Assembly (NCBI RefSeq): GCF_020921035.1
Contig: NC_063150.1
Span: 22,863,826-22,927,825, forward strand
DNA from: Rhodamnia argentea
Taxonomy: Eukaryota; Streptophyta; Magnoliopsida; Myrtales; Myrtaceae
Length of the DNA stretch: 64,000 nt
Reading direction: 5' to 3'
Of this stretch, positions 395 to 51,375 are shown piece after piece. The notes below the pieces were generated by a model, which saw only the letters and a program-made list of their open reading frames with translations, was not told where the DNA came from and ran no database searches. Numbering within the stretch: position 1 is the stretch's first letter; each line of letters begins with the position of its first letter. Made by a program: the position numbers and the translations under genes.

Positions 395-3300
395 TCATCT
401 CGCCGAAACTTGAGCCTCAGCTGAAAAACCATCCTCGGAGAAATCGAAGACGTCGTCGCTCTTGCACAAGGCGTACACTATGTCCACCATGCTCGGCCTC
501 TTCGCCGGGTCCCGGTTCAGGCAGGAGATCGCGACGCTCACCACGCTCGCGACGCTCTCCACCGAGCACGACGAGTCCGCCACCAGGGCCTCGTCCATCC
601 ACCCCCTCAGCCTCTCGGCCTTCCCGATCTCCTCGCTGCTGCGCCCACCGAAGGCCTCGACCGCGGCGGCCCACATCACCCTCCCCTCCTCGTCCATCGC
701 CTCCCTCCCCGAGACCAGCTCGAGCAGGACGACCCCGAACGAGAACACGTCCATCCTCGTGGACACGACCCCGTCGGACAGGTACTCCGGGGCGATGTAG
801 CCCTGGGTGCCCACGATGTGCATGGTGATGGCGTTGCAGCCCGACTTGGCGAGGCCGAAGTTGGCGATCTTGGCCCGCATGTTGGAGTCCAGCAGGATGT
901 TGCTGCTCTTGATGTCCTTGTGGACGACCCGCGGGCGGGTGTGCTCGTGGATGTACTGGAGGCCGTTGGCCACGTCGAACGCGATGCGCAGCCGGGTCTT
1001 CCAGCTCAGCCTCCCCTGGTGGCCGCCGGCATCGTGGAGCCACGAGTGGAGCGACCCGTTGGGCAGGAACTCGTAGATGAGGTAGCAGTTCGCGTCCTCC
1101 GGGTCGATGCAGAAGCCCTCTAGCCTCACTAGATTGCCATGGTTCACCTTCAAAGCCAAAACAGAGGAGGGTCTTGTTACAAATCAATCCCATCAATGGT
1201 TGAAAACTTGAAAACAGATGAAAAAATGTCAATCGAGCTATCATGTCATTATGTCAACTAAAATTTCTTAGAATCATTATGTCAATCGAGGGGCGGCGAT
1301 TAACATATTTGCTAGATTTCGTCGTTGGAGCTAGACAAATAACTATATCTTTAATTTCAAGTTTTCATTTTCGACCCAAAAAAAGAAAAATTCAAGTTTT
1401 CTTTTTGAGGATTAAAATGCATTATTGATATGTTAATTTCACGAAAAATTTATAACGTTTTCTGGTATTTTAATTTTTTTTAACAAAATACGATAGGAAT
1501 CCGAAGCAAAGACCTAGGACCGCCCAGACGTGCTGGTCAAGGGCTCTGAGGACCTGGGACCAACCATCGGGGTCACAAGCCCAGCATCGAGGTCCCGGGC
1601 ACAAGAATTGGGTACTTGGGCATGGCCACTAGAAGTCTAGGCCCGATCTGGGGAGACACGGGTGCAAGCACCTAGGAGCAACGGAGCACGAGAACCCGCT
1701 CCTGGACCCGAGACCTCGGCGCCCAGGCATTCGAACCCGAGACCCGGATTTTTGTTTTTGTTTTTTGGATCAGGCAGGACCCGGAATTAGACTCACAAGA
1801 CTTTCTTACTCAAACAACGTGTTTCCAGTTCATCTATTCCCCACAAAGCCGAACTTAATTAAAACGGGAATATTATACAGCTCAAGTCCAGACAATAAAA
1901 CAAAACAAAAACTATAAATTAAATATCATAACCATACTACACACATCGCGATAATAGGACCATTAACATAATTAAGTGCAAAAAAACTAAGTAGATTCGT
2001 GCCCAAGGAATCAGCCAAGCACCACATGCATAAGGGACATTTACAAGATAAAATTCATGGCTAAAGCACAAAATAATATGTGTGGGGGGCATAACCGGAA
2101 TGGATGGAGACAACCCATCTTGACTTCTTCTTCTTCTTTTCGAAATTTCGTTTTCGGGCAAACCTAGATTTGCTTAAATAAGTAGGCAAAGAAGGTAAAT
2201 TATAATCAAAATCGGGACAAAATAATTATAAAACCTCGAAAAAGAACCATTGAGTTTCTTTTCTCCCCCATGTAAGGAAAATTGGAAAAAACACACCCAA
2301 CATCGCAAATGATCAAATCCTTATAAAGGACTCATCATAGATAAAAAAGACGCGATAAAAATGCTTACTTTCGGTCTCATACTCGAGATCGATATCCCTT
2401 TTAATCCCGGTGCTTCGACTTTTTTTTTTTCCCTTATAACTTAGTCATGAAATATGAAATTTCGACATCCTTAATCCGCCGTTTAGGTCTATGTAATCGA
2501 ATTTGCATTTAAAGATTTGACAGGTCACACACCTAAACTCCCCTAAACCATAAATAAGCAGCTGAAAATCTGTATTAATTCATTTTAAAAACAATTAGGC
2601 AAATACGCCTGCTGTTCATAATATGATATCACCATCCAAGACTAATGTTCACTCCATTATTACACATAATAATATAAAATTTATAAGAAATTATCAAACT
2701 TTATTCAGATTCAAAACGCATGATTATCGCCGCCATCATAATTGACCCCTTCGCAAATTCCACAGGCTCGTGAGAATAGTCAAAACCATTAACAAAAAAA
2801 AAATTTCAAGACCTCCATCATTTTGACCACTTAATTACAATTAGTGCGCGATAAGGAGAGCCATTAACGCTCTCACATGTCAAGAAAGTCACGCCCACTC
2901 ACGTGAAGGCTTGCCTCTGGGTTACGCCGTTTAAAGAGTCAACGACTGTCGTTTTCTCCACGTGATTTCTGCAATTCTTTGGATCTTTTAGAATGGCTCC
3001 TATGAGAAAACCTAGATTGTTTTAAATAGCTTTTAAAAAAAATAATTCCAAAATAATGGATACCCAGGTAAACCCTAGATGATATTGGAAAAATTATAAA
3101 AGAAGTTACCCAATCAATTTTCGTTGTCTAACTTACAGAAAAAGAAAAAAAGATTTAGATTGTCCAAAAAAGTAATTGAATAGAAATAATGTGTTGCATC
3201 GTAAAATTAAATCAGAACCGTGATCAACAATAATACTTACTAAATTCCGTTTATTTCGCGAAAAATAAATATTTTTAAAAAAATATTTTATAAAATATAA

Positions 3301-4967
3301 CCACTTATATCGCATGAAACAATTAGCAAATGAAAAGTATTTTCATTGTCGACTATAATTATGCTATACATTTTCGTGGACAATAAAAATATTTTTTGTT
3401 TTTTTTGTATTTTTATAAACGATACAAACGATGTTTCTACAAAATAAAAAATATTTTTCAAATTATTCTTTTTTCGCGAATCAAATAGAGTCATAGTGAT
3501 CTAATCACTAATCTAGGCAAAAAAGAATTGAGGTATTCCATTAAATGGGTCAATATAAGTCATGGTCACAGCTAATTAAACCCCAAACTAATCTATTTAT
3601 TATACATGTGAATTAAACCCTAACATCATCATCCATTTTATTAACCCATGTCATGTAATTTAGCTCAATTTTACCATAAATGTACCGTTACCACCATTCC
3701 AACTTATCCCAAGCGCAGCAACAAAGATAACATGTGAAAATAAATAAAAAAAATTGGAACCCTAGGCAAACCAGAGAATCAATCAAGTTGAAGAGATAAT
3801 AACCGAGACATTAGCGACGGGAAAACCCCTTACCTTCTGCAGAATCTTGAGCTCCTCGTAGGCGTTCCACTTCATCTTCTTGATCGCGAACACCTCGCCG
3901 TCCAGAAAACCCTTGTACACCGACCCCTGGATCAGACACCTCGAGCTGAACCCGTCGGTCGCTTCCTTGAGCTCGTCGATCCCGAACACCCTGTACTTGT
4001 CCAAGCAGCCCGACACGTCCGCCATCAGATTCACCTCCATCTCCCTCGGCCCTTTCTCGCCGCGCGCCATCCTCTTCTCTCCATCTCCCTCCAGATTGGC
4101 CGGCCCCGGACCCGGAACCCTCTTCTTGTTCGATCTTTCTCTGTGGAGCCAGAGCGCGATCCCCAGAATCAAGAATACCCCGAGGACTCCGACCCCGATT
4201 GCCAGCCCCACGATGAGCCCTGTTCTTTCTTCTCTCGCGGATGGCGCGGAGGTGTTGGCGGAGACGATGGGTTGGGTCAGACTTGGGAGCTTAGAGAAGG
4301 GCAGGAAGAGTGTCTCGGTAGATTTGGTGTTGTTGCTCACTATGCTCTGTTCTTGGATCCCGAATCTCGACGCCACGCTTGAGAGGTTGTCGCTGGGCTG
4401 AAGCACGTACGAGACCAGGAAATTGACCCCACCCGTCGACTGGGTCTCGTTGGGGCACTTGCAGAAGATCGGGAACACCGCGTCGACCCCGATGGTCAGG
4501 TTCGTGGCGACCAGGTCGGGGTTCACGAGCTCGACCGACTGGTAGGAGGTGAGGTTCTCGAAGGGCCCGGTGGAGAGGCGCAAGAAGGTGTCGCCGGCGC
4601 GGATGGTGTAGGTGATGTTGGCGTAGGAGATGTTGGTGCCGTTGTGGGGGTTGCACGAGCAGGTCAGAGGGACGAACAGGGGTTGGTCGGCGGCGAGGGT
4701 TGCGGAGAGGGCGGAGGACGAGATGTTGCTGGGGTCGGCGATCATGAGGCGGCTGACGCCGAAGAGGTCGCCGATGGAGGCGAGGTCGGTGTAGTTCTGG
4801 GAGAGGCTGGCCCGGTAGAAGGCGTAGGTCTGGCACGGGGAGTGGGTCTGGTTCGCCGTGCAGGTGTAGCCGGTGATGTTGGGCTGGGCGTGCGAACGGT
4901 GAAGGAAGAGGACGACGACGAAGAAGAGGAGGAGGAGAGGGGACCGGTGGAGTTGGCTTCCCATCAT
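395..4967 (-). CDS. LYK4/5-like: LysM domain receptor-like (pseudo)kinase, LYK4/LYK5 type, two exons
   Basis: Exon 1 is 4967-3834 and exon 2 is 1147-395. The junction reads ..CTGCAGAAG|gtaagg to ..ttgaag|GTGAACCAT, giving ILQK-VNHGNLVRL and a protein of about 628 residues. Order: signal peptide (1-27), three LysM repeats with the usual spacer cysteines (C103/C105 and C169/C171, plus C36 and C45), many N-glycosylation sites, one membrane segment (about 250-274), then a cytoplasmic kinase fold. The kinase looks inactive as a phosphotransferase. The glycine loop is degenerate (LIQGSVYKG), DFG is NFG (474-476) and HRD is HKD (454-456), while the VAIK-type lysine at 363 is kept. In Arabidopsis, LYK4 and LYK5 bind chitin oligomers at the plasma membrane and signal with CERK1; the same role is inferred here. 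Either of two adjacent Met codons could be the start. CERK1-type active LYKs are excluded by the NFG motif. Confidence 0.93.
1148..3833 (-). other. Intron of the LysM receptor gene (2686 bp)
   Basis: The intron has a canonical gt donor and ag acceptor and phase 0. It is AT-rich and non-coding, except for an odd GC-rich block at about 1500-1760. As I recall the Arabidopsis relatives lack an intron at this point, but I could not check that. No transposon ends were recognised inside it. Confidence 0.75.
1500..1760. repeat. GC-rich purine/pyrimidine block inside the LYK intron
   Basis: About 260 bp of GC-rich sequence is built from imperfect repeats of motifs such as GACCTGGGACC, GAGGTCCCGGGC and GACCCGAGACC. 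The surrounding intron is strongly AT-rich. There is no open reading frame. It looks like a degenerate minisatellite or the core of a decayed element. Ends and target duplications were not found. Confidence 0.5.
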
Positions 4968-5736
4968 TTCCTTTGTCTTAAGGTTTGATGTATTTTTGGG
5001 TTTTGGGATGTTTTATGTCATGTTTGAGAGGAGGGGTTTATAACTTTATATGCAGTATATTGTTTTTCGAGTTTTAAGGTTTGTTTTCCAATTTTTTAGC
5101 GAATTTGTATCCCCGACTTGTCCGTCACGAATTGAGTGGTCCTCGGCCGAAAATTATTAGATGAATGGATCTCCTCTGCTTAATTAATACGAAAAGATCA
5201 GTTATTTAAATTCGAGTCCACTCAATTCAGCAAGACTCGGGGCTCGGATCTTTAATTGTTAAATTCGAAATCGTTTTCGCAAAATATTTCATGAGCATGA
5301 TGAGATGGAATTGAGAATCCGATTTATTTACGTGGGTAGATACGATTGGAGTGAAATTTCTCCAATGGAGAAAAAATGTGGGAAGTGGGGTTTGGATTTG
5401 TCAAGACATTGGGTCAAAATTGGGCAAATTGGTGGAGAATGGAGATGGGGGGCAGTAGCGTTGGGTCAAGATAAGGTTTCTGGAACGGCGGATGTGGCCA
5501 CGGAAGTCCCTAGTCCTTTCACATCGGTGACTGACTTTGACTTCTCGTAGGCACGTGGCTCCAACGGCATTGACGGACTTAGTCGAGTTTCTATTCTCAT
5601 TTTCGAAAGTACTTAATAACTATTAAAAAAAAATGGCGAATAAGTGCTGGAAAAATATTCCTAACTTATTAAACTAGAGGTCAATTGAGGTGCTCGATTT
5701 TTTTTTTAACTCGAAAAGGCACTTTCGTTTATTCAT
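4968..5736. other. Upstream region of the LysM receptor gene
   Basis: This is the presumed promoter and 5' leader of the minus-strand LYK gene. It is AT-rich near the start codon. A short open frame on the plus strand at 5305-5550 has no recognisable domain and is treated as chance. No specific cis element is claimed. Confidence 0.4.
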
Positions 5737-6707: not shown

Positions 6708-7134
6708 GGGATAATGGCATAAATGATCCATGAACTTTCATTTAATATGCAATGTGGTTCCTGAATTTTTAATTTTATTAATATAGTCAATGACTTTTAG
6801 CCCAATATGCAATGTAGTCCCCGAACTTTTAATTTGACCGATATAGTCCATGAACTTGAAGAACATGTTCAACTTAGTCCATGAATTATAGAAATATGTT
6901 CGATGTAGTCCTTTCGTTAATTCAAGTTCAAGGACGACCTTGAATATTTTCTTATAATTAAGAAACTAAGTTGAATATGTTTGAAAATTTCGAGAAACAT
7001 ATTGAACAAATTGAAGGTTTATGGACCACATTATATATTGAGCTAAAGTTCGGGAATCATATTGGTCAAATTAAAAATTCAGGAATCACATTGCACATCG
7101 GACCAAAGTTTGTGGACTATTTGTGTTATTTTCC
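6708..7134. mobile_element. Fold-back MITE (about 427 bp)
   Basis: The two ends are long inverted repeats. The left end starts GGGATAATGGCATAAATGA. The right end, read on the minus strand, starts GGAAAATAACACAAATAGT, and similarity continues inward through AACTTT and TGCAATGTG. The element has no coding capacity. It belongs to the same loose family as copies at 27783, 46535, 49584 and 50218. A clean target duplication was not seen here. Confidence 0.7.
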
Positions 7135-12400: not shown

Positions 12401-12612
12401 ACCCATCCCCTTTCCTTTCTCTTGCACTACGAGGGTTTCACGTCGATACGAACAGCAACGCACTCTTGCATCGTTCTGCTTGAATCCTTCGATCCGAACT
12501 CTCCCGCCTGTTTTGGAACAAATTGTCATGCCGGTGTTGTTCGTCGTGGTCGTTGGGCGATGCCCTCGTCCGTCTCATATCTCGTCCTTAAAATTTCGGA
12601 TCAAGAAACTTC
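9401..12612. other. Long spacer, no gene recognised
   Basis: Mostly AT-rich. It contains a GC-richer patch at about 10120-10380 and a GC-rich core at 10660-10725 flanked by T- and A-runs, which resembles the cores of the fold-back elements elsewhere. A CACGA-rich stretch lies at 11280-11310 with related GTGTCGG motifs to 11650. Short open frames here have no domains. The last roughly 250 bp (about 12359-12612) are the displaced original 3' flank of the CIPK gene. Confidence 0.5.
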
Positions 12613-12619
12613 CTCGTGC
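12613..12619. repeat. Target-site repeat CTCGTGC, left copy
   Basis: CTCGTGC sits directly left of the left LTR and again directly right of the right LTR (24374-24380). The usual duplication for this type of integrase is 5 bp, so part of the 7-bp match may be chance or the exact LTR edge may be offset by 2 bp. On the minus strand it is GCACGAG, the His-Glu codons of the CIPK gene. Confidence 0.85.
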
Positions 12620-15121
12620 TGTCGCGACCTAAAAATTAATTTAGGTTAATGGATTATTAGGTTAATTAGATGAATTAACTAACCTAATACGGACTCTCCC
12701 AAGCCCTACCAATTCGCAACTTAGGTTTGATTTTTTTTTTGTAGGAGCCGCCACTAATCTTTTTTGGTAGGTAGATTAGATACCTAAATAAAATACGGGA
12801 GAATACTTTATTTTCTGCTAACCAGAGATTTAGGGTTCGGGGACTTGATTATGTTAATTTTTAATTAACACCCTTTCGGTACCGGATTTCATGAAAATGC
12901 CTTTTCTTGATTGACGATGCGAATTGAATGTTTTTCTTTTTCATTTTCCCTTTCATTATTTTTTTGTTTTTTCAAATTTCTTTTAAGCTTGAATTTGAAC
13001 AAAGTTAAACAAAAATGCCCATAATATACCTTAATTTCCGAATTTTCTGATAAATCTTCTCATTCCCGAAGATCCGAGCTAGAGCGAGATTTTATCCGCT
13101 ATATTCTCGAGGATTCGAGCTAATATGCAGATAATGGTATAAGATGTCATCATCCCCTATCGCCAAAGGGCAGAATACGAAATCTTATACTAAATTGCCG
13201 TCCCATCCCATAAGATCATGGTTAAGGCTTGCAATTTAATATTCTGACGGGACTAGGCACCGGGGAGCATACATTATAGGCAGTTTTGTTTAAAGATGTG
13301 CAAATATTTATTGAAATTTCGAAAATCCTTAGGGGATTCCGGAATTTTCAAGGGCATATGGCCCTATCCGCAAAGGATATTTATATCTTTTAAAATTGGA
13401 AAATTATCTCTTGAGATTTGAAAAGAATTTTCAGATAACTATCCAAATTTTAAAAGATATGATCAAAATTTTAGAAGATTTTAATCCAGACCATAAAATA
13501 ATCTTGAATATTTCAAAAGATATACACAAAGATATGATCGGGATTTTGATTATCTTAGATTCAAATCAAATATTCAAAAATATGCTCACGGAATCAAGTA
13601 TAATGTTTCAGATATGCATGACATCCCCAAGATATGATTAGATAAGAATAATTCGAAATAGGCAACAATATATCTAAAATATATTCAGATTACGATTGTT
13701 ACCTAATTCGTGGATAACTTTCCGAATTCGAACTTCAAAACAATCTCGTGATTCAAGCTTGAAAACTGAACCGATGGGCTAAGGGGATTTGTGCACGAAT
13801 CAAATGTGGTGTATTTGCAGCTTGTCCAGGCTCAATTTGCAGCAGTAATTTTGACAATGAATCCACCTAAAAATCAGCACAAAACAGTGAAGAAACCATG
13901 CATAAACAGCAGTGAAATTGATCACGGACAACGAGGCAAAATCTGCACTGAATAGTTAGTGAAATTGTCCAAAAACAGTGCTGTTTTTGGTCACAAACGG
14001 CAGCAAATTGAACTCTCCACAGCAGCGAACTAATCCCGCAACTTGTAGCAAAAATTCTGTACCGAAAAGGTAGGTAATCGCCCAAAACAGAGCTGTTTCG
14101 GGTATATGTCAGCAGCAAAACAGTGAGTATTTGAGCGCCGAAACAGCAGAAATTTCAGTATCAAAACAGCAGCCAAATAAGCCCAGAATAGCAGCAAACT
14201 CCAGCAACAAAGCAGTGACAAATCGGTCCCTGAACAGCGCCCAAACAGCAGAGAAAAAGACACAAAACAGCAGCTAGATAAACTACCCTGACAGTGGTGA
14301 AAATCAGCACGAACAGCGGTCGATTTGGTCTTCGAACAGCACTGAACAACTAAATTGTAGAGCTGAACAGAGGCGCGAAGGTTCTGCAGCGGCGGTGGTC
14401 GACTTCGGGCACGGTAGGAGATGCGAACGCACAAACGAGCGAAGCTTGGACTGCTTTTGTCCTTTTCCTCCACCGTAAAAACACCAAACAGCCACTCTCT
14501 TGCTCTCCCCTTTTTCACCTGAATTCCCTCAAATTTTCTGAATAAGATTGCCCCTCCCCCATTAACCCTAGGCATAATTGTGTACTTATAGAACAAAGGG
14601 TCGCACGCAAGCGTAGGGTTTACCGACGACCGTTCGATTCAGAAGCTCTTATTAGATATCGATCGTCGGATTGAAAATTCTGACTTTTGAGGAATCTTAT
14701 TTATTAAAAAGAGCTAGAATTTTCGTCCAAATGAGGACTCCCACAACTTGGACCAAAATCCTAGGCTTTTGTGGGCTCATTTTGTCATTCCGGACCCAAT
14801 TGGACCTTAACTAATCAAATGGATAATTAATTTAGCCCTTTTTGCAATTTTAAGGGTTCAAACGGGCTGTTTTAAGTCCAAAATTATGATGAAAAATTCG
14901 GCATCCCCTCTGGGCCTCATTCGAAATTTTCAAATTAGTCCGGTCCAGCCGCCTATCAAATTAAGCTCAATTGACTCGACATCCGATCCTAAATGCCATA
15001 ACATGCTTTTGAGTGACAGAAAATAAATGTGCTATGCATGATAAAATTATTTTTGTGAGAACCATTACTAATTCTCATTTTTATGAAATGATAAATTAAA
15101 ATTAAAATTTAGGTGTCAACA
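12620..15121 (-). repeat. 3' LTR of the TR-GAG-like element
   Basis: Nearly identical to 21873-24373. On the minus strand it begins TGTTGACACCTAAATTTT and ends GGTCGCGACA. Differences from the other LTR include a T indel plus A/G near 12830, A/G near 13489, C/G near 13610 and G/C near 15014. A CAGCAG/AACAG-rich tract occupies about 13860-14360. Open frames inside it are low-complexity and not taken as genes. Confidence 0.95.
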
Positions 15122-15134
15122 ACTGCCCCTCTTT
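15122..15134 (-). other. Polypurine tract
   Basis: Read on the minus strand, AAAGAGGGGCAGT lies immediately before the 3' LTR start TGTTGACACC. This is the expected position and base composition for the plus-strand primer of reverse transcription. It fixes the element's orientation independently of gag. Confidence 0.8.
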
Positions 15135-15540
15135 GAGTGGAGACTCGTAGAGGTTTCGCTCAAAGACCAAAATTGAAACCTAAATTTTGAAAATGCAAAT
15201 CACAGTAATTTTTGGTGGGACTGAATCCCATTTTCTGATGCAAGTGAAATGATACATAAAATGCAATGCTGTAAATAACATGTGTCAATGATTTCCCTTT
15301 TTTTCGTGTTAGAGAAACTTGCACATGGATCGCATACGAAAATACATGTTTTAGCAAATACCTCATACGCCGATGATTCCCTTAATTTCCAGACCTCCGG
15401 TGGATGCGAGAATACTAAGGTACTAAGCCCATCTGTTACCAGAAATTTCCTTCTGACGGGAGACAGCGCAAGATATGTGTTGTGAAGAAATATGCTTGAG
15501 TTATGGTTCAAGCTGACCATTTTTGTCTCTCGGGAAGTGG

Positions 15541-15975
15541 CCCTCGTGCACTATCAACCGTGAGTCGGTAGGTTGTCTCTTGGAAAGTCACCCTCGTGGA
15601 CTTCGACCATGAGTCGGTAAATTGTCTCTTAGGAAGTCGCCCTCGTGGACTTCAACTATGAGTCGGTAAGTTGTCTCTTGGGAAGTCACCCTCGTGGACT
15701 TCGACCATGAGTCGGTAAATTGTTATCGTGGGAAGTCACCCTCGTGGACTATCACCATGATTCAATAAATTGTCTCTCAGGAGATCACCCTCGTGGATCT
15801 CAACATGAGACGATAAATTAGGAAGTCACCCTCATGGACTTCAACCATGAAATTATCTCTCAAGAGATCACCATCGTGGATCTCAACGTGAGACAATAAA
15901 CTAGGAGTCACCCTCGTGGACTTCAACTAGGGACAAACAAGTTGGTTATTGGGAAATCACCCTCGTGGACTTCAA
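15541..15975 (-). repeat. Minisatellite in the retrotransposon 3' untranslated region
   Basis: Ten imperfect units carry the core CACCCTCGTGGACTTCAAC (plus-strand reading). Core starts are at 15541, 15591, 15640, 15689, 15739, 15788, 15829, 15871, 15911 and 15960, giving spacings of 50, 49, 49, 50, 49, 41, 42, 40 and 49 bp. Two length variants of the unit therefore coexist. Tandem arrays in the 3' UTR are known for Tat/Ogre elements, where they can seed satellite DNA. Confidence 0.85.
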
Positions 15976-18832
15976 CCAAGCATTGTGCCACCATGCCCAA
16001 TTCAATTATCTGAGAATTTGAAGGATTATCTTGTGGGTAGCTGCTAGCATGGCTTTGTTCATTGAATAATCCTTGGATGAACTTTGAGACTCGAAAAAGA
16101 AATTCGAACATAAAAAATGTGTTACCCGTCAGATAGTGTCAGAGGTAACACATGCAAGCATACACGACAAAATTCAACAATAAGATCATGCATAACTCTC
16201 TGTCGATCATCAATTCCTTTAGTTCTTGTTAAGCATGATTAAAAACAAAAATATGCATTTTGCTCATATGCTAGAATTGTTCACAATATGGTTTATGCAT
16301 AACTATTCTGTCAAGTTTACATTACCAAATATGTTCGGGAAGGTTATCACATCATGAATACCTCGAATGTAATATGAATAGGAAGTTTAGTCCGAAAGGG
16401 CATTCTCTCACTCTCGAGAAAAGATATTTATCCCGATTGCAGGATTTAAGAGAAATCACTCAATCTTACCATCACCACATTCAACAAGGATCCGAGTGAT
16501 CTCGCAATTGATACGATAAAACCGATCTTGAGGTCTTGATTAGGATCGTAATGAGGGCTAGGTCAAAGGTTTAATCAAAGGGGACTCCGGTCGAGTCAAA
16601 GCTTATGAAATGAAATTCTTCATTATCTACTCCGGGTTTACAAGCCAAGAACCCTGCGAAATAAGATAAAAATGATCTTGCTCGCACTTCTTCGAGCGAT
16701 ATTCATGAGCATTTGAAATCCTACGTTAACCCTAGTGCCCTAATCCGAAGAGACTTTTGGTAAGGGTTGTAATGTAGGTTCAAGGTAGGCTTGAAAATGA
16801 AAGGCCTATTCGGAACAAATGGGTGTATGATGATAAGATTGGTGATCATCCATCCTCGATACTTCAGCAAGAGTGCCATCGGTAATCTTCATTAATGTAC
16901 TTCAGAAATTGTCTTTCTTTGAGGAACATTTTATGGACCAATTCAGGTGGGACCTCCCTTCCTTCCGGAGATTTTTTTTTTAGAGAGCTCTTTTTCTTAT
17001 TCCCGATGGGAGTGGGCCCTTTCACTCTTTAGACATCATATACATTTTTTTTTGAATGCTTGAATTTCGGAATTTTTTTCTTTTTTTTTTTTCTCTCTCT
17101 TGCTTGCCTTTTTTTTGCATGGCAAGCTTTGCCTTTTTTTTTACTCCCTACTCCCATCTTTCTTGTTGAGCTCTTTTGTTAAGAGAAAAGAAAAGAGTCT
17201 CATCTAAATCTTTTGCATATTATCTTGTCGGATCTTCCAAGTTTCAGCTTGCCCCAAGGCACTTGGCGCGTCTATCAAATGGTCTAAAATGATTTCCTTT
17301 TAGGATGATCACCAATTGGGCTTCAAGAAACGAATTCGCCGCTCAAATTGGGTTAAGCAAGGGATAAATGTATATGATGTAGAAATGAAATGCTCTTCGT
17401 CATGTCTAAGGCCCTTGAGCTAACATAGAATTCGCATGCAACAAATACACTCAATAGATTGATGCAAGTGAAAGCAAGAAAATTTCACTCATTCTTTGCA
17501 TTTCTGAAATTGCCCCAATGTGGGGATATTCCTGGCAGGGGGTTTGAAACGAAACCACCGTTCGAAGGGGTTAAGCAAAGGGCAACATATAGTATTTGGA
17601 TAGAGGAACTGAATGCCTCTGTCATTTCGGCTGTCGTACCTTTCGCGAGAAAACCCTTTACCTTGTGAATGCGGAACCTAACTCTCGCTCAACTCACTGG
17701 GGGTTAAAATGTGGGACATATATGGAAATGGATTGCCTTTCATCATTCTGTCATGCCCCATTACGTACATTCGACGCATCATATATGTTTATACTTCCTA
17801 ATCAGAGTTGGTAAATTAAACATGAAGAACAATCACGCGTAAACCATGCAAGACATGAATACGGCAATTTCAAGCATTAGCCACATTTCATGAAAATCTC
17901 ACGCCTTTTGCTAAAAAAAAATGACTATGCAAGAATGCGAGAAAATTATCGGGAACGAGAAAATCTACGTTGCCCCGTAACATGTGAGTAGATCAACTAA
18001 GTCAGGAAGTCTACTCCTCGTGTTGAGGATTGGCTCATTCCTATCTTTGCCCCAGAGCAAGAAAAGCATGCATGAGCGAGTCGAGAGATGCTCCGACTTG
18101 TGCCACGATAGTTACCATCAAGTTGGTCATATGCTCCTGTAAGAAAGTAAGTGTTACCTTGAAAATAATGTGAGACAGAGAAACATACTCCCTCTTTCAA
18201 GTCGAGGTCCGCTCGCTCCATTTTCAATCAGAATAGGTATAGCTTTTACCAAAATGCGAGATTGCCCCAAACATGGCCAGCACCGGGGACCGAATTATGA
18301 GCTTTGGCAAGCTACTTTTTCCATACTTGATCCCTTGAAAGTTGTAGTGCCCCAGCTCGCATTAGATGTATCTTGCCCCCGAACCGGTTCCCAAACATGT
18401 AGCCGATGGATCAATAGAATAAGCAGGGTTAAACATCATGTAAGCCATTTTAAGAAGATTTTTCTTGAAAAACCTTTTGCTTTCGAAAACCTCGGGACAA
18501 TAATTCTTGAGAAGCCCAACCCTCAGTACTTACCATTGATAATAGATTGTTCGATCGTTGGTTATCGTCATTGGGTTAGTTTGGTATGCCTCAACAAGAT
18601 TCCAAAATAATGAAAACTTCTGTAATTTTATTGATCATGAATCAATTAAATTACATCTTATTGAATTCAAAATGCAAACAATTCCTCAATGGTGAGGAAT
18701 TTTGACTCTAATCAACCTAGGAAATGAAAATGCAACCTCGACACTTAGAATGCAGGAAATACCCACGCAGGGGATTGCATAAAAATAAAAATGATACTAA
18801 TTTGGGTCTACGCCCACTTCCTCAAAGATCCT
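15976..18832 (-). other. Non-coding tail of the retrotransposon (gag to minisatellite)
   Basis: About 2.9 kb lie between the gag stop and the minisatellite. An autonomous element would have pol here, but there is no open frame with enzyme motifs. It contains a pyrimidine-rich region (16965-17180) and many copies of TTGCCCC, which is GGGGCAA in element sense. Whether it is replaced or deleted pol cannot be told from this copy. Confidence 0.7.
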
Positions 18833-20296
18833 TCAATTGCTTGCATGATTTGGCAACGGGTTACTCTGCACATTAGGTTGGCCGACTGACCGGAATGTAA
18901 ATGCCCCTATTTCGAGCAAATCTTGAATTCGATTCTTAAGCACCATACAATCATCGGTTGAATGACCCGGTTCACCCGAATGATAATCACACTTCTTAGT
19001 CGGATCATATTTAGGGAATGAGGCATAATTGGGTCGTTGAAGATCCGAAGTAAGCAAGTTCTTCTTTCGCAAGATAGCCAAGACCCGCGAAGGAGTTCCC
19101 GGAAGAGGTGTAAATTGACGCTTGGGGCGGAATTGCCGACGTTGATTCTGATGGCCATAGTTAACTGTTTGTTGGGTTGCCATTGTTGCTTTAGGGGCTT
19201 GAACGGGAACCTTTTGGGCATAGGCCACATTCACCTCAGCGGCCGCTTCCTTGTCTTTTTTTCCGAAGAATCGCTTCCCCGAAGAACCGAAATCGCCATA
19301 CCAACCTTTCTTTAATCTGCTCTCTACTTCTTCAGCCATCGAGATCAATCGGCTAAACGACTGAGCAGATGCACCTAGTATATGAGAGCGCATGTTTTGT
19401 GGAAGCGTAGACACAAATAACTTCATCAATTCCCGTTCTGATGGCTCCGGCATAAGCTGGGCTGCCAAATTCCTCCACCTAGTCGCATCTTGTTTGACGG
19501 TCTCTCCTTTCTTCATCTCAGCTTGTTCCGGATCGTCCCTAGAGATGGTGATGTCTAGGTTAAATCCGAAATGTTTGATGAACGCTGCAGCCGTTCTTTC
19601 CCAAGTCTCAATGCGGTTGATATGATGGTTAGTGTACCATCTCATGGCTGGCCCTTTCGGACTTGCCTGGAAAGTTTGGACCATAAGAAGATCATTGGTG
19701 ACATACTTAGTCATCCGGGCCTGGTACATTTGGACATGTTCTACCGGGTTAGACGTGCCGTCATACTTTTCAAATTCCGGCAACTTGAATTTATCTGGGA
19801 CTTGAACCTTGGCATACATAGATAGGTCGATTGGGGAAACATGATGCGTCCCTTCTATTTCACGCAATCGTTGATCGAATTTTGCCAAAAGTTTGGCACT
19901 CTCATCATTTAACATACCGGTTGCAACATCGGGTACAATTGGTGTGGCGATCTGAAGCGCGGGTAAAACGACATTTCCGGGAGGCTGAGTAACACCTTGA
20001 ATGCCAAATGGAGGAACATTTGCAAGAGGCGGATTGTCACCTTGAGCTCCAAGTAAAACATCTTCAAGAGGTGGCATGTCATTCAACGCTCCATCACTTT
20101 GTGCGCTCGCTTGAGGATCGACAATTGCTGGGGGTTGAATCATGGATGCCACTGGGGTTTGTCTCTGAGTCATCATGAAATTAGTCATCATCTGAGTCAA
20201 CATAGCCATCTGGTCTTTCATATCCTTCATCTCTTCTTTGATCTGCATTTTTACTTGCGCTTCGACACGAGCTGCGATTTCAGCATCATCAGCCAT
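18833..20296 (-). CDS. gag: Retrotransposon Gag protein (487 aa), Tat/Ogre-like
   Basis: The single long open frame of the element. The N-terminus is charged and helical (about 1-45), followed by a Pro-rich linker. A retrotransposon gag domain spans about 165-330, with VPDKFKLPEFEKYDG, a GPAMRWY motif and WERTAAAFIKHF. The C-terminal segment has CDYHSGEPGHSTDDC (C436, H439, H445, C450), the Cys/His box typical of Gag in Tat-group elements, followed by LKNRIQDLLEIG. In autonomous relatives the frame continues toward protease; here it stops after PLPNHASN. Gag would build virus-like particles that package the element RNA. The frame is intact, as expected for so young a copy. The ATG at 20296 is the first in frame. 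Confidence 0.9.
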   Translation of the reverse strand: MADDAEIAARVEAQVKMQIKEEMKDMKDQMAMLTQMMTNFMMTQRQTPVASMIQPPAIVDPQASAQSDGALNDMPPLEDVLLGAQGDNPPLANVPPFGIQGVTQPPGNVVLPALQIATPIVPDVATGMLNDESAKLLAKFDQRLREIEGTHHVSPIDLSMYAKVQVPDKFKLPEFEKYDGTSNPVEHVQMYQARMTKYVTNDLLMVQTFQASPKGPAMRWYTNHHINRIETWERTAAAFIKHFGFNLDITISRDDPEQAEMKKGETVKQDATRWRNLAAQLMPEPSERELMKLFVSTLPQNMRSHILGASAQSFSRLISMAEEVESRLKKGWYGDFGSSGKRFFGKKDKEAAAEVNVAYAQKVPVQAPKATMATQQTVNYGHQNQRRQFRPKRQFTPLPGTPSRVLAILRKKNLLTSDLQRPNYASFPKYDPTKKCDYHSGEPGHSTDDCMVLKNRIQDLLEIGAFTFRSVGQPNVQSNPLPNHASN

Positions 20297-21851
20297 CTTT
20301 CTTGCTCTGGATCGAGTAACAATTGGTGCACGTGGGGTATCCGTAGTAAATTATCTGGAAGAGATGATCATATGGTGAGTATAGCATGTGAGAAACGTTG
20401 AGTCGATCCATGGCTAGACTAGACTCATGAATACCACTCAAACTTGATTCGTGACACTGACCAGGAAATTCCTGCTTCGTCGGATTTCGGAAAACAATTC
20501 GTCAAAAATCACCGGAGGGTCAAAATGGTGTGAAAAATTACAAGCTCATAGTTGAGAGGATGAGGAACAACTTTCATGTTTGGTGGTTTAGCTGAAAATG
20601 AACGGATTAGCTCAGTTTAGTGCATTTTCTCAAAAAATCACATCCGGAAAACTGTCTCGTCCGCCTTCTGTTAAATGAACGAAGGACCCCCTAAAAATGT
20701 GAATTAAAATCTGAAATTTTGTAGGCTATCAGTTGAAACATCAACCTACAACTTTTATGTTTGGAAATTTAGCAATACAGCACGTTTACTAGTGGTAAAT
20801 CGCAAAATGAATCTGTAGTCTGAGAAGTGCGAGATCCCAGCCTGCTTGACCCCGGCCATTAATTCCATAATAAATAGAAAACAGACTGAATTACCACGAA
20901 ATTTTTCGATATGATGGTTCAAGATCTTATGAACATTTTTCATTTGAAGTGAGGAAATTGAATCCAACGTAAAAGGGTTGTAAAAATTCGTACAAGACTG
21001 CAAGGTCAGAATGAAAACAGAGCTGTTTTGTTAATCTAAAAGTGTAATCAAAGTATGACCACCATAAAATCCGAAAAAAAAAAATCCTAAACAAGAGACT
21101 TAGCAATGTAAAGATACAAGTAAAAAGACGGGACTCGACGAGACCACAAAGACAAACCTAATTTGCCATGGACCGACTCATGAAATGAAGGGAGAAAATA
21201 CATGTGCGATCATGATTTCAGAGACAAGCGGAATGACATATGCATGCTTTATTAGCCAGATTTTTACAGCTTTCAAAAGCGAGCCCGACTTAAAGATGTA
21301 AGTCGTGTTTTCGCCCTTTTAAGCTTAGGGAATGTTAAGAAAAACCCCTCGTGCCCGCAGATTCAGGCCTGAACGGGGAATCTTAACATAATCGGAGTCG
21401 AAGGTAAGGTCGTCCATTCCTCCATCCCGAGGCCGGGCAAATTCTTACCCGGACACCATCCTAGGTTCATCTAGCATTTTAGGTCCAATGCAATGTAATG
21501 AATCATGCATAACAAGTTTAATCCACTCAATTATGGAATTTGCAAAATAATTAAACTAATGACCCTGCAAAACAAAGGTTAGAAAATAACATTTACATAA
21601 CCTGCAAAAACATTTAACACCTAAGGGAAGTTAAGAATAAACACAATCCGTGAATTCAAGAATCAAGAGAAAATTCACGTTTAATCAATCAAGGCATAGA
21701 TCATGAAAATTAACGGCTTAAGTCCACAAAAATTTTAATTTTTTGAAAATTACGGGTGACTTAAAAAAAATCCGAAAATTAATGTTAATTTTCAAAAATT
21801 CATGAGAAGTTCAGTTCACCTTTTAATTTTCAAAAAGAATTAAAATTTTAA
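20297..21851 (-). other. 5' untranslated region of the retrotransposon
   Basis: About 1.55 kb between the primer-binding-like site and the gag start. There are no long frames and the sequence is AT-rich. It presumably holds the leader and packaging signals, but none can be pointed to from sequence alone. Confidence 0.55.
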
Positions 21852-21869
21852 TCCCCAAATGAGTCGCCA
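21852..21869 (-). other. Candidate primer-binding site
   Basis: Three bases inside the 5' LTR, the minus strand reads TGGCGACTCATTTGGGGA. It starts with TGG, which pairs with the CCA end of a tRNA. It is not the common initiator-Met site. The GGCGACTC..GGGGA form resembles primer sites of some Tat/Ogre elements, but I cannot name the tRNA with certainty. Confidence 0.55.
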
Positions 21870-21872
21870 AGC

Positions 21873-24373
21873 TGTCGCGACCTAAAAATTAATTTAGGTT
21901 AATGGATTATTAGGTTAATTAGATGAATTAACTAACCTAATACGGACTCTCCCAAGCCCTACCAATTCGCAACTTAGGTTTGATTTTTTTTTTGTAGGAG
22001 CCGCCACTAATCTTTTTTGGTAGGTAGATTAGATACCTAAATAAAATACGGGAGAATACTTTATTTTCGCTAACCGGAGATTTAGGGTTCGGGGACTTGA
22101 TTATGTTAATTTTTAATTAACACCCTTTCGGTACCGGATTTCATGAAAATGCCTTTTCTTGATTGACGATGCGAATTGAATGTTTTTCTTTTTCATTTTC
22201 CCTTTCATTATTTTTTTGTTTTTTCAAATTTCTTTTAAGCTTGAATTTGAACAAAGTTAAACAAAAATGCCCATAATATACCTTAATTTCCGAATTTTCT
22301 GATAAATCTTCTCATTCCCGAAGATCCGAGCTAGAGCGAGATTTTATCCGCTATATTCTCGAGGATTCGAGCTAATATGCAGATAATGGTATAAGATGTC
22401 ATCATCCCCTATCGCCAAAGGGCAGAATACGAAATCTTATACTAAATTGCCGTCCCATCCCATAAGATCATGGTTAAGGCTTGCAATTTAATATTCTGAC
22501 GGGACTAGGCACCGGGGAGCATACATTATAGGCAGTTTTGTTTAAAGATGTGCAAATATTTATTGAAATTTCGAAAATCCTTAGGGGATTCCGGAATTTT
22601 CAAGGGCATATGGCCCTATCCGCAAAGGATATTTATATCTTTTAAAATTGGAAAATTATCTCTTGAGATTTGAAAAGAATTTTCAGATAACTATCCAAAT
22701 TTTAAAAGATATGATCAAAATTTTAGAAGATTTTAATCCGGACCATAAAATAATCTTGAATATTTCAAAAGATATACACAAAGATATGATCGGGATTTTG
22801 ATTATCTTAGATTCAAATCAAATATTCAAAAATATGCTCACGGAATCAAGTATAATGTTTGAGATATGCATGACATCCCCAAGATATGATTAGATAAGAA
22901 TAATTCGAAATAGGCAACAATATATCTAAAATATATTCAGATTACGATTGTTACCTAATTCGTGGATAACTTTCCGAATTCGAACTTCAAAACAATCTCG
23001 TGATTCAAGCTTGAAAACTGAACCGATGGGCTAAGGGGATTTGTGCACGAATCAAATGTGGTGTATTTGCAGCTTGTCCAGGCTCAATTTGCAGCAGTAA
23101 TTTTGACAATGAATCCACCTAAAAATCAGCACAAAACAGTGAAGAAACCATGCATAAACAGCAGTGAAATTGATCACGGACAACGAGGCAAAATCTGCAC
23201 TGAATAGTTAGTGAAATTGTCCAAAAACAGTGCTGTTTTTGGTCACAAACGGCAGCAAATTGAACTCTCCACAGCAGCGAACTAATCCCGCAACTTGTAG
23301 CAAAAATTCTGTACCGAAAAGGTAGGTAATCGCCCAAAACAGAGCTGTTTCGGGTATATGTCAGCAGCAAAACAGTGAGTATTTGAGCGCCGAAACAGCA
23401 GAAATTTCAGTATCAAAACAGCAGCCAAATAAGCCCAGAATAGCAGCAAACTCCAGCAACAAAGCAGTGACAAATCGGTCCCTGAACAGCGCCCAAACAG
23501 CAGAGAAAAAGACACAAAACAGCAGCTAGATAAACTACCCTGACAGTGGTGAAAATCAGCACGAACAGCGGTCGATTTGGTCTTCGAACAGCACTGAACA
23601 ACTAAATTGTAGAGCTGAACAGAGGCGCGAAGGTTCTGCAGCGGCGGTGGTCGACTTCGGGCACGGTAGGAGATGCGAACGCACAAACGAGCGAAGCTTG
23701 GACTGCTTTTGTCCTTTTCCTCCACCGTAAAAACACCAAACAGCCACTCTCTTGCTCTCCCCTTTTTCACCTGAATTCCCTCAAATTTTCTGAATAAGAT
23801 TGCCCCTCCCCCATTAACCCTAGGCATAATTGTGTACTTATAGAACAAAGGGTCGCACGCAAGCGTAGGGTTTACCGACGACCGTTCGATTCAGAAGCTC
23901 TTATTAGATATCGATCGTCGGATTGAAAATTCTGACTTTTGAGGAATCTTATTTATTAAAAAGAGCTAGAATTTTCGTCCAAATGAGGACTCCCACAACT
24001 TGGACCAAAATCCTAGGCTTTTGTGGGCTCATTTTGTCATTCCGGACCCAATTGGACCTTAACTAATCAAATGGATAATTAATTTAGCCCTTTTTGCAAT
24101 TTTAAGGGTTCAAACGGGCTGTTTTAAGTCCAAAATTATGATGAAAAATTCGGCATCCCCTCTGGGCCTCATTCGAAATTTTCAAATTAGTCCGGTCCAG
24201 CCGCCTATCAAATTAAGCTCAATTGACTCGACATCCGATCCTAAATGCCATAACATGCTTTTGACTGACAGAAAATAAATGTGCTATGCATGATAAAATT
24301 ATTTTTGTGAGAACCATTACTAATTCTCATTTTTATGAAATGATAAATTAAAATTAAAATTTAGGTGTCAACA
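21873..24373 (-). repeat. 5' LTR of the TR-GAG-like element
   Basis: It matches the 3' LTR almost base for base. Because the element lies in the same orientation as the CIPK gene, this LTR is the first sequence met downstream of the truncated CIPK coding region. It should supply that gene's stop codon and 3' UTR. Confidence 0.95.
23836..23843 (-). promoter_or_regulatory. Possible LTR TATA box
   Basis: CTATAAGT on the minus strand lies about 530 bp inside the 5' LTR, a reasonable distance for a U3/R border. No transcript data support it. The same octamer occurs at the matching place in the 3' LTR. Confidence 0.35.
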
Positions 24374-26461
24374 CTCGTGCCATGAGACGACGATGTCCTC
24401 GAGCCCGACCTTCCAGTCCCCCCAATGAGCCTCCTCAAACTCGCCGCCACCGTCGACCACCACCTTTGCCTCCACCAACACCGCCTTCTCCACAACCTCC
24501 ACCACTTCCACCGCCAAAACCAACCTCCCTTTCCCCAAGATAACGCTCCTTCCCTTCCCTCTCTCCACACTGTACCCTAATCTCCCACCAACCTCCTTCA
24601 ACTTCCCCATTATCACCTCCATGGAAGCATTGGACACGAACCTCCTCTCGTTCCTAGTATCAATCTCGAAAAGCCCGGACAAATCGAGACCCGACGACAT
24701 GGAAATAAGGTCGAACGCATTTAGGCTCGGACCGACATCGAAGTCACTACAATCCTTTTCACCGGCTAACAAGTGTTCGATGTCTGCGAAGCTATTGTGG
24801 GACTTCAAAGGGAGCGATTTCTTGAACCAAGAAGTGGCCGCCAAAGCTTGCAAGCTCATTCTCGTCTTGGGATTGGGATCGAGAAGCTGGTGGATGATGT
24901 GTTTCGCCGGCTTGGCAATCCAATCGGGGAACCGGTAGTCCCTCTTGTGGATTCTCTTGTACATGGTGATGAGGTTGTTGTCGTCGAAGGGCATGTAGCC
25001 GCACAGCAGCATGTACAAGATAACGCCGCAAGACCAAGCGTCCGCCTTGGGACCGTCGTAGCCATGCCGGCAAATAACCTGAACCAGGATGGAAAACTTG
25101 GAGAGATGTAAAACCATTTGACCGCTAAGCTCATAACACAGCAAGCTGTGGATATCGATATAGTACTCGGCGTTGTAGTGCCTTCTTGCATCCCATGTAA
25201 GATGATAAGGAAAGTGTTTCACGCTTCATAAATTAGAAGACTATTGTATTCCGAGTTAAAGAGAGTGGACAATTTCGGACATAGGAAGCGAAAAGGTGCG
25301 TTCTTTTCTCATTGTAAATTCAATTAGTCCGTAACTATTTTCTTCAATTTTCAGATTTTCACTTCTTTGTCGGTAACCATTTTCTTTAATTTCTAGATTT
25401 TCATTTTTTTGTTGGTAACCATTAAGAATGTTATGCCGCAAATAATTCCTTAAAGAGAGTACTATCACGATTCGTAGTCCGATTCCGTCGTTCATTTCAG
25501 CACTAAATTTCCAACACTTAGTTCATAATAGAGCCAAGGTGACTATAATATATGCTAAGATAAATTCATCCGTTCTGATGGACTAAGTTGAAAGATTTTA
25601 AGTTAAATCGAAGAATTTTATGGATATCGACCTTACGCAATTACGTCCCCGTGATGCCCGTCGGCGTCATGAAACACTGGTCAAATTATTCGAAGCATAT
25701 TCACGGCCTCATCTTGGACATTCAACAACGTGACAACCTTAACTACCGTAAGGTTGACTCGACGTCGTACTTAACAAATTAGTCAGAGCCGACAAACAAA
25801 CCTCGGGAGCCGCGAAAGCCGGGGTCCCGCGGGCGGTGTGTAGCAAGCCGTCCCGTAGCCGCTCCGGCAGTGCAGACGAGCCGAAGTCCGACACCTTCGT
25901 ATTCCCCTTGTGGTCCAGCAGCGGGTTCTGCGGCTTGACGTCCCGGTGCGCGACGCCGTTCTCGTGGCGATAGTTGAGGGCCGACACGAGCTGCTGGAAG
26001 TAGCGGCGGGCGGCCGGCTCGGCGAACCGGCCGCGGCGGACGATCCGGGAGAAGAGCTCGCCGCCGGCGGCGAGCTCCATGACGAGGTAGATGCGGGACC
26101 GGGTCGCCATCACCTCGTGGATCCGGAAGATGTTGGGGTGGGACCGGAGCCGCCGCATGGCGGCAACCTCGCGGAGGATCCGGGGCTCGAAGGCGGGGGA
26201 CTTGAGAGCGTACTTGTCCTTGTTGATGACTTTTATCGCGACGTGGGTGTTGTCGGCGAGGGACGGGGCTTGGTAGACCTTCGCGAAGCTGCCCCGGCCG
26301 AGGAGGCGGCCCGGTTGATACTTGTTTTGGAGCGTGGTGGTGGACCGGGAGGCGGGGGCGGCTGGTGGAAGCGGTGGCGGAAGCGGTGGTGGCGGTTCCA
26401 TGGACTGCTGGTGGTGGTGGTGGTGGTGGTTGGGACTCGGGGGAGGAGCGATTCGGTGCAA
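24368..26461 (-). CDS. CIPK (CIPK4/7-like): CBL-interacting protein kinase, one intron, last codons replaced by an LTR
   Basis: Exon 1 is 26461-25802 and exon 2 is 25078-24368 (456 aa; the second Met at 26401 gives 436 aa and fits the family better). The glycine loop GRGSFAKV is at 54-62, the catalytic Lys is K77, HRD is 172-174, DFG is 192-194 and APE is 218-220. The NAF motif ([19 protein letters not shown], from about 340) binds CBL calcium sensors, and a phosphatase-interaction region follows. CIPKs phosphorylate ion transporters after CBL recruitment. Oddities: HRDVKPQN is followed by Pro instead of Leu; DFG-S-SAL replaces DFG-L-SAL; the activation loop has [12 protein letters not shown] where CGTPAY/N is expected. 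These suggest weakened constraint. The C-terminus once read WHEEVS-stop and now reads WHEC-stop, with the stop inside the LTR. A late pseudogene is possible, although the frame is open. Confidence 0.88.
24374..24380. repeat. Target-site repeat CTCGTGC, right copy
   Basis: Matches 12613-12619 exactly and abuts the right LTR. It lies within the last codons of the CIPK gene (His-Glu on the minus strand). Joining left and right flanks through one copy restores an uninterrupted CIPK 3' end. Confidence 0.85.
25079..25801 (-). other. Intron of the CIPK gene (723 bp), possibly a recent gain
   Basis: The donor is CCCGAG|gtttgt and the acceptor is ggttcag|GTTATTTGC, phase 0, joining APE to VICRHGYDG exactly as family members read. 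The pentamer AGGTT occurs at both borders (25799-25803 and 25076-25080), as expected if a 718-bp insertion duplicated AGGTT and so created both splice sites. Inside is a roughly 46-bp tandem duplication near 25330-25425. The source of the inserted DNA is not recognised. Many CIPKs of this subgroup are intronless. Confidence 0.7.
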
Positions 26462-40540: not shown

Positions 40541-41350
40541 CAATGAAAAGATGGGCTTCGTTGGAATTTTTTTTTCCTTTTGTATAATTTGCTAGTTTGT
40601 TGTAGTCACTTGAATCTCTCTCTCTCTCTCGGATCTCCCAGTTTTTATGCTTTCAAGGAAAAATTCGCTGAAAGAAAATCAATCTTCTTGGTCCTGTTCT
40701 GGGAATTTGGGAAGTTGGATGATTAACGAAGCTATCATTCTGGATATAAGAGTTGCTTATGGCTGTCACATTTCAGGTCGAGTTTGTTTTGGGTCTATGA
40801 AATGTTTGGTTATGATGTTTGTCTCTGCTTCTTTTAAACTTCCTCAGTTTCTTATCCTTTTTGCACACGCCTAAAGCGCGAAATGATGCGTCCTACAAAG
40901 CGCGGCAGTTAAAATGGTTGGCGTTGAGGCATTTGCATATCATTGGTCTTCATACTGTGTTGGAAAATGATGACCCATTAAGTTCCAAGGTGAAGGAACC
41001 TTCATATGTTAATGCTACAATTAATCAGGAAAACAGAGAGATTGGGAGACGTTTATCTCTTCTATCCTGTGGCCTTGTGGATGTCGTTTAGATTCCTTAA
41101 GCCTTTGGTTCATCCCATTTGATCTTCGATTCATCTAGACAGAACACAAGAGAACTTGTTTACAATGCCATTTTTCCATCAACAAATAGCTGTGCTGAAT
41201 CCTTTTGCCTTATGGATTGGAATGTGACTTGTTATAGTCTGCAGGTCATATGGATGCTGCTCGAATCTGAAGATGATGATGCTGTTGAACCTTTGAGCAA
41301 GGAAATAATTTATTGTCTTAAACTTGTGCTTGGCCTCACAAATACGTATT
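40541..41350 (+). promoter_or_regulatory. Probable 5' leader of the U-box gene
   Basis: A CT run at about 40615-40630 and mixed-composition DNA precede the start codon at 41351. A splice-acceptor-like CTGCAG|GT at about 41241-41246 suggests a leader intron, which is common in this gene family, but no transcript supports it. Several short upstream frames are present. Confidence 0.3.
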
Positions 41351-44300: not shown

Positions 44301-45203
44301 CACGAGCTGCAAGGAGTTGTCGAGTACCTTCTCAGGCCGAGGAGATTGGAGGCCTTGGTGGGGTTTCTTGAGAATGAAGATAAGAGTGATGTGCAGATGG
44401 CAGCAGCTGGCTTACTGGCCAATCTTCCAAAATCAGAAGTATCGCTGACTACGAGGCTAATCGAGTTGGATGGAGTTGAAAAAATTGTGAAAGTATTGAG
44501 ATCAGGAACCATGGAAGCAAAAGAGAATGCCCTGAGCACTCTCTTCAGGTTCACAGACCCCACAGATGTGGAGTCACAGCGTATTGTGGTCGAGCAAGGA
44601 GTTTATCCTCTATTAGTAAACTTTCTCCGGGTCGGTTCTGTGACGGCCATGGCAAGAGCAGCAGCTCTCATTGGTAACCTGTCATCGAGCACTCCAAGGC
44701 TCGTTATGGCCACTAAACCTAGCTTTTGCTGGTGTTTCAGTGCACGTGTGCCCCTATGCCCGGCCCATGGCGGCAAATGTAGTGTTGCCTCCACATTCTG
44801 TCTCCTGGAGGCCAATGCTTTGCGTGATTTAGTTGAACTCTTGAGCATACAGGTTCATGCAACAGCATACGAAGCAATTCAGGCACTTTCCACGCTGGTG
44901 AGGGAAGGATCTCCCAACAGAGGCACAAGCGTTCTGCACGAAGCCAATGCAATCAAGCCCATCTTGGAGATCTTGACGTGGGGAACGGATTCACTCAAGG
45001 AAGAGGCCTTGGGATTCCTGGAGAAGATTTTCTGCTCAAAGGATATAGTGGAACACTATGGATCAACTGCTAAATTGCTTCTCATTCGCATGACTGGCCA
45101 GAACATTCATGATGAAAGTCATATTGGAAGGAGGGCCGCCCGGGTTTTGTCGCTGTTGGAACGATACTCAAAATCGTCAATATCTATTCTTCCAGGAATA
45201 TAA
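41351..45203 (+). CDS. PUB43/44-like: U-box/ARM-repeat E3 ubiquitin ligase, PUB43/PUB44 type, three exons
   Basis: Exons are 41351-42583, 42828-43146 and 43720-45203, with junctions AAG|gtaagt to tttccag|GAG and CAAG|gttgaa to ttgccag|GTCC. The product is 1011 aa. An N-terminal helical UND-like region (1-250) starts MALELIPIGTILAVLTNQV. The U-box (260-330) has FFCPINWTIMVDPVSL and ends RQSIEEWRELN, and it recruits the E2 enzyme. ARM repeats fill about 380-1011, including GWDYIIPCLGRD and an unusual Cys-rich insertion (CWCFSARVPLCPAHGGKC) found in this subfamily. It should ubiquitinate immune or senescence targets at the plasma membrane; Arabidopsis PUB44 (SAUL1) is about 800 aa, so this is the longer 1000-aa type seen in woody plants. 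Met 41351 was chosen over an earlier in-frame ATG (41324) because the family begins MA-E-L-(I/V)-P-I-G. Confidence 0.92.
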
Positions 45204-51061: not shown

Positions 51062-51067
<6 letters not shown>

Positions 51068-51115
<48 letters not shown>

Positions 51116-51216
51116 ATCACTGGATCAGAGTATCGGATACGAGGAACAAAAAAGAAAAGAAAAAGGTTGTGAGATGGCGTGGGAGCTCCGTTTCTTGTCT
51201 ACCCAACAAATGATAC

Positions 51217-51269
<53 letters not shown>

Positions 51270-51375
51270 ATCACTGGATCAGAGTACCGGATACGAGGAA
51301 CAAAAAAGAAAAGAAAAAGGTTGTGAGATGGCGTGGGAGCTCCGTTTCTTGTCTACCCAACAAATGATACGCAGA
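51068..51375. repeat. Tandem duplication of a GA microsatellite plus 109-bp unit
   Basis: Two 154-bp units each consist of a long GA run (51068-51111 and 51219-51265) followed by the same 109 bp starting GTTCATCACTGGATCAGAGT (from 51112 and 51266). The 109-bp parts differ at one base seen by eye (TATCGG versus TACCGG). The near identity indicates a recent duplication. Confidence 0.88.

Follow-up and report, generated by a model that had tools for sequence, protein, structure and literature searches.

A recent sense-strand insertion of a long terminal repeat retrotransposon in the last codons of a CIPK gene

Termination sites linked to transposable elements (TEs) occur in Arabidopsis genes, such as those of ATCOPIA4 in RPP4 and of Gypsy/ATGP2 in an RPP5-like gene (PMC10241880), and a new insertion of the long terminal repeat (LTR) element ONSEN in RAV2 is described as giving predicted truncated proteins with LTR-encoded C-terminal residues (PMC12112155). 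On the side of the host gene, most members of the intron-poor CIPK clade of soybean (subgroup IV) are reported to have no intron, and seven to have one or two (PMC4911590). Here we describe a locus on which both bear, in a 64,000-nucleotide stretch of plant DNA (contig NC_063150.1, positions 22,863,826 to 22,927,825; the whole stretch is called the window below, and coordinates are counted from its first nucleotide): an LTR retrotransposon of 11,754 bp, at 12620–24373 on the minus strand, lies inside a CIPK gene. We regard it as likely, though some way from certain, that this is a recent sense-strand insertion of a Gag-only, non-autonomous element in the last CIPK codons, and that it came cheaply to a gene whose constraint was already relaxed.

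Read on the minus strand, the CIPK gene runs as ...GTC GTC TCA TGG CAC GAG into the element and continues with TGT TGA from the LTR, giving an interrupted frame of SWHE-C-stop in which TGT-TGA lies within the LTR at 24373–24368. The far flank, on the same strand, is GCACGAG GAA GTT TCT TGA and carries on the CIPK frame with GAAGTTTCTTGA (12612–12601); this orphaned native end (12601–12612, minus strand) encodes E-V-S-stop, and the joined flanks of the empty site read SWHE-E-V-S-stop. With the CIPK as query, a homology search matched 3682 proteins at E up to 0.001; comparisons rest on the 120 that were listed. The nearest of these (P0001, 88% identical) terminates VVSWHDEQVS, and because this tail stands at the same place, it is very likely that the far flank encodes the native CIPK C-terminus. 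The element thereby exchanged three residues (E-V-S) for one (C). A first-pass annotation had proposed just such a retrotransposon in the last CIPK codons, with SWHE followed by a Cys-stop from the LTR and an ancestral end of WHEEVS-stop, and the junctions, the LTR ends, the joined flanks and the HDEQVS tail of P0001 bear it out. Its reasoning correctly gave the loss of E-V-S and the gain of C, but its title, which spoke of four residues replaced by one, would be right only with the stop codon included in the count. The sense orientation that it assigned to the element agrees with the placement of CIPK and the element's Gag reading frame on one strand (both minus), and the position of the element confirms that the native CIPK 3′ flank is displaced by 11.75 kb.

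The element is bounded by near-identical LTRs on the minus strand, the 3′ LTR at 12620–15121 (2502 bp) and the 5′ LTR, which gives the Cys and the stop codon to the CIPK frame, at 21873–24373 (2501 bp). As is characteristic of LTR retrotransposons, they start with TG, end with CA and have a short direct repeat outside; on the minus strand the first bases of the element are TGTTGACACC and the last are GGTCGCGACA. Over 2501 aligned sites, four substitutions separate the two LTRs (two transitions and two transversions), and there is a single indel (Kimura two-parameter distance 0.0016). Substitution rates of 1.3e-8 and 7e-9 per site per year are used for dating, and they yield ages of 0.06 and 0.11 million years (My), respectively; the insertion is recent, at about 0.06–0.11 My.

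The direct repeat, CTCGTGC, stands at 12613–12619 on the distal side and at 24374–24380 on the CIPK side, and is the 7-bp GCACGAG repeat that had been noticed at the join. By arithmetic, an exact 7-bp flanking repeat has a chance of about 6e-5; where it borders an element whose LTR termini are intact, it is not a chance occurrence. Target-site duplications in plants are normally 5 bp (PMC11963269). The interior right after the 5′ LTR also starts with GC, and the duplication here may be 7 bp or may be 5 bp (ACGAG) plus GC; under the 5-bp version, the 3′ LTR may have kept two element bases at its end, next to a GC that the target happened to have. Either version leads to an identical empty site. 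A misassembly or chance join was judged unlikely given the flanking repeat, the LTR termini and the tail of the relative. An assembly artefact in which the element was falsely joined into CIPK would have to account for an exact repeat, intact termini, two LTRs that are not identical and the continuation of CIPK on the far flank, where the tail resembles that of P0001, and we consider it extremely improbable.

The part of the protein that was exchanged is variable across the family. In an alignment of the window CIPK with the 120 listed relatives (121 rows), the SW column holds W in 116 rows (the other five have C in two cases, L, G and a gap), the tail after the conserved SW has 5–6 residues in 67 rows and ranges from 0 to 27 save for one row of 178, and no residue reaches a majority past the second tail position. 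Given so variable a family tail, loss of E-V-S is likely to have been a mild change.

The host gene contains both the Pkinase and the NAF domain, the combination by which a CIPK (SnRK3) is recognized; its best solved relative is CIPK23 (E 9.5e-98), and among the 120 listed relatives, every one that has a CIPK number from a source is a CIPK4 or CIPK7; the gene is of the CIPK4/7 type. The frame is divided on the minus strand into exon 1 (25802–26401; kinase N-lobe to APE; GC 68.5%) and exon 2 (24368–25078; the rest of the kinase and the NAF domain, with the LTR-derived Cys-stop end; GC 0.539, as against 0.685 in exon 1 and 0.378 in the gap between). The gap is an intron-like interruption of 723 bp (25079–25801, minus strand; GT...AG, GC 37.8%, AGGTT at both edges) that breaks the activation segment at APEV, between GAG and GTT, and it may represent an intron of long standing, one that was gained, or an insertion that is not spliced out. 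We take likeness to CIPK4/7 as the ground for placing the gene in the intron-poor CIPK clade (CIPK4/7-type, fewer than three introns), and its single intron-like gap, for which splicing is putative, agrees with that placement. Since some genes of the soybean clade have introns, the CIPK may have one as well without being defective for that reason. The soybean subgroup IV genes have fewer than three introns each, as does the CIPK here, which differs from them in its intron-like gap in the activation segment and its LTR-derived end (PMC4911590).

Several comparisons suggest that the CIPK had probably lost constraint before the element arrived. Column counts were restricted to columns with at least 110 residues, and in the 132 columns that are at least 95% conserved the window CIPK departs 6 times, as against 1 for P0001 and a median of 1 among the 121 rows; in the 97 columns that are at least 98% conserved it departs 3 times, sharing the top place with two other rows. 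With the other 119 rows used to polarise derived changes, seven fall on the window branch and none on the P0001 branch at sites that are at least 95% conserved (two-sided p=0.016). These seven include C145R, L160P, L175S and C191R; L160P adjoins the catalytic-loop Asn, L175S comes directly after DFG and C191R lies within TACGTP. A KCS gene from the same window, compared with its relative P0122 as a control, showed 9 against 9 derived changes, and 1 against 2 at the sites at least 95% conserved. End branches in the trees measure 0.11 for the window CIPK and 0.049 for P0001 (window plus 30 of the 120 relatives, chosen by us), and 0.061 against 0.054 for KCS (window plus 28 of 120). As the 1311-bp CIPK coding sequence would have taken up roughly one substitution since the insertion, nearly all of the kinase changes should predate the element.

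A number of observations weigh against prior loss of constraint. All derived changes taken together come to 14 on the window branch and 7 on that of P0001 (p=0.19, not significant), and of these two cuts of the same data only that at conserved sites is significant; 36 further differences between the window CIPK and P0001 could not be polarised. With its 6 departures, the window CIPK only ties for fourth of 121, after P0108, P0038 and P0049. All 436 codons of the 1311-bp coding sequence are open, K57, D154, N159 and D172 (invariant in 13 aligned rows) are kept, and the CIPK may still work. Little can be concluded from the open frame in either direction, for 60%, 46% and 26% of neutral simulations (300 runs each) were without a stop after 14, 25 and 40 changes, respectively. 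Private changes at conserved sites are, moreover, not proof of gene death.

Eight of the ten window-derived residues in exon 1 (25802–26401) stand in codons that now contain CG (L30P, Q86R, C145R, L160P, L168T, L175S, Q181R and C191R). These codons look as if TG or CA had become CG, and biased conversion or base-calling error is a possible source of the pattern. Were the conserved-site changes of the kinase base-calling errors in a GC-rich exon 1, the gene would be normal, and the CG codons speak for this; the KCS gene lacks the pattern (one of nine window-derived changes falls in a codon containing CG), bearing in mind that it is less GC-rich (0.591 versus 0.685), and we give this explanation little credence. 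The preferred reading of a gene relaxed before the insertion also qualifies the claim of the first-pass annotation that the event was near-neutral: the small change to the protein agrees with it, but the tail is probably not the whole story, for the gene seemingly carried earlier changes at conserved sites and has the 723-bp gap.

With the insertion on the sense strand, the CIPK frame closes at the TGA in the first six bases of the LTR (TGT-TGA), and we infer that any CIPK transcript must enter the 5′ LTR and end inside or beyond it. The sense 5′ LTR has AATAAT and AATAAA (LTR positions 71 and 417, respectively); polyadenylation within the LTR would create a 3′ untranslated region (UTR) of some hundred bases, or a longer one via the LTR's own site. 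Long 3′ UTRs are able to trigger nonsense-mediated decay in plants. By analogy, it is plausible that the LTR rewires the stability, termination or silencing of the CIPK mRNA. In its full form, functional rewiring would mean that an active CIPK kinase gene owes its 3′ UTR, its poly(A) site and the state of its chromatin to the 5′ LTR, with altered stability or silencing as the outcome. The open frame and kept catalytic residues are in keeping with this, as are the AATAAT at 71 and AATAAA at 417, which would permit a 3′ UTR that measures some hundred bases or more, and LTR-ended transcripts have Arabidopsis precedents; set against the 723-bp interruption and the kinase's private changes at conserved positions, it is on balance rather unlikely. 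The stronger proposition, that a young Gag-only element has captured the 3′ end (stop, 3′ UTR and poly(A)) of a still-active CIPK and placed it under element silencing, we find distinctly unlikely; if true, a calcium-stress kinase would be under element silencing, and empty and filled alleles may still segregate. Nor does splicing of the element offer a convincing route to a near-native C-terminus: intronization is known for a full-length ONSEN LTR element inserted in an exon (PMC12112155), but by eye, rather than by computation and with farther pairs unscanned, no GT/AG pair right at the CIPK junctions restores WHEEVS, and we hold restoration in the mRNA to be very improbable. We hypothesize that the insertion persisted mainly through its low cost, the family tail being variable and the constraint on the gene having probably been relaxed beforehand. 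With the gene probably already relaxed, regulatory rewiring is possible, and the state of the kinase weakens the functional inference drawn in the first pass.

The interior of the element (15122–21872, minus strand; 6751 bp) starts with GCTTGGCGACTCATTTGGGG where a primer-binding site is expected and ends with AAAGAGGGGCAGT where a polypurine tract is expected, both being candidates by position, and we take the two to resemble those of Ogre/Tat elements. Its open reading frames (ORFs) of at least 50 aa, 34 in number, were all scanned against Pfam with matches accepted up to E=1. The sole long one in gene orientation is an intact Gag-like ORF of 487 aa (18833–20296, minus strand), 93% identical to a Rhodamnia argentea protein, which matches Ty3_capsid weakly (22 bits, under the 29.1-bit cut-off; E 1.2e-4). 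Among the 25 proteins that the Gag matches, 14 carry PF03732, the Pfam retrotransposon-gag family, and 4 are named retrotransposon gag domain-containing; those with a named organism (20 of 25) come from Rhodamnia, Psidium, Eucalyptus or Syzygium, which are genera of Myrtaceae. The 33 remaining ORFs gave five weak Pfam matches, all under the cut-off and none to pol, antisense interior ORFs gave no Pfam match over the cut-off, and reverse transcriptase, RNase H and integrase were not found in any of the 34. An autonomous element was accordingly rejected. As Gag is the only retroelement domain found, the element looks non-autonomous and Gag-only, and on the strength of that Gag it probably belongs to the Ty3/gypsy superfamily. 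Tandem repeats with units of about 40–49 bp lie between gag and the 3′ LTR (15523–15936), and no further copies of the element were found within the 64-kb window. Retand/Tat-type Ty3/gypsy elements likewise have tandem repeats in a long region before the 3′ LTR, and some recently active members are without coding domains; that lineage is defined by reverse transcriptase, whereas no pol was found in the present element (PMC11963269). Because the lineage is classified by a domain not found here, the element, which would appear to work like Retand, is not filed under it.

The CIPK groups in its tree with Punica and Trapa (support 96/91) and the KCS with rows from Melastoma, Punica and Trapa (support 99/96), and the rows nearest to the window CIPK and KCS in those trees are Logan contigs. 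The closest listed Myrtaceae relatives are 65% identical for CIPK and 82% for KCS, while the Gag is 93% identical to Rhodamnia argentea. This clash of affinities would be explained either by a Myrtaceae host with a paralogous locus lost elsewhere or by movement of the element between lineages. In the window, about 29 kb separate CIPK from KCS (24368–56654), and to judge by locus numbers the pair seems close in Bauhinia (L6164_025753/025748), Clitoria (RJT34_23416/23412) and Citrus (WN944_025854/025853); such neighbouring numbers suggest that CIPK-KCS may be an old linked locus.

Elsewhere in the window, an LYK4/5-like LysM receptor kinase (395–5012) is interrupted by about 2.6 kb of low-GC, intron-like DNA with gap edges AAG|GTAAGG and TTGAAG|GTGAAC, and ORFs with U-box and ARM repeats (41309–45203), split between 42607 and 43680, are probably one gene. 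There is an inverted repeat at 6709–7134 (205-bp arms, 71% complementary, 16 bp between), and a 154-bp unit with GA repeats is duplicated in tandem at 51064–51375 (98% matches).

The insertion is real and well preserved, ordinary in kind, and its mechanism is of a known type. It provides a clean natural case in which a host gene takes its last codon and its stop from the first six bases of an LTR, while the protein suffers minimal damage. Should insertion and empty alleles segregate and the CIPK be expressed, the locus would show in isolation what an LTR-made 3′ end does to a gene; if the CIPK was decaying beforehand, it is an example of an insertion tolerated in a relaxed gene. A literature search on CIPK and retrotransposon insertion showed neither term in title or abstract among the matches listed, which is not proof of absence, and one on insertions at the coding end gave a sole match, on splicing in cancer. 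Parallels are known from Arabidopsis. In the TE–gene chimeras of that plant, the element sits in the 3′ part of the gene and the transcript ends in the TE, and the CIPK is likewise arranged with a predicted end; it differs in that the coding tail itself was hit and the stop codon too is supplied by the LTR (PMC10241880). ONSEN in RAV2 resembles the CIPK case in placing LTR sequence in frame at the C-terminus of the protein; RAV2 is cut short and measurements of its isoforms exist, whereas only the last three residues differ in the CIPK, where the change is read from DNA, and a new ONSEN insertion contrasts with one that is natural, older and of a different, probably Ty3/gypsy-type, element (PMC12112155).

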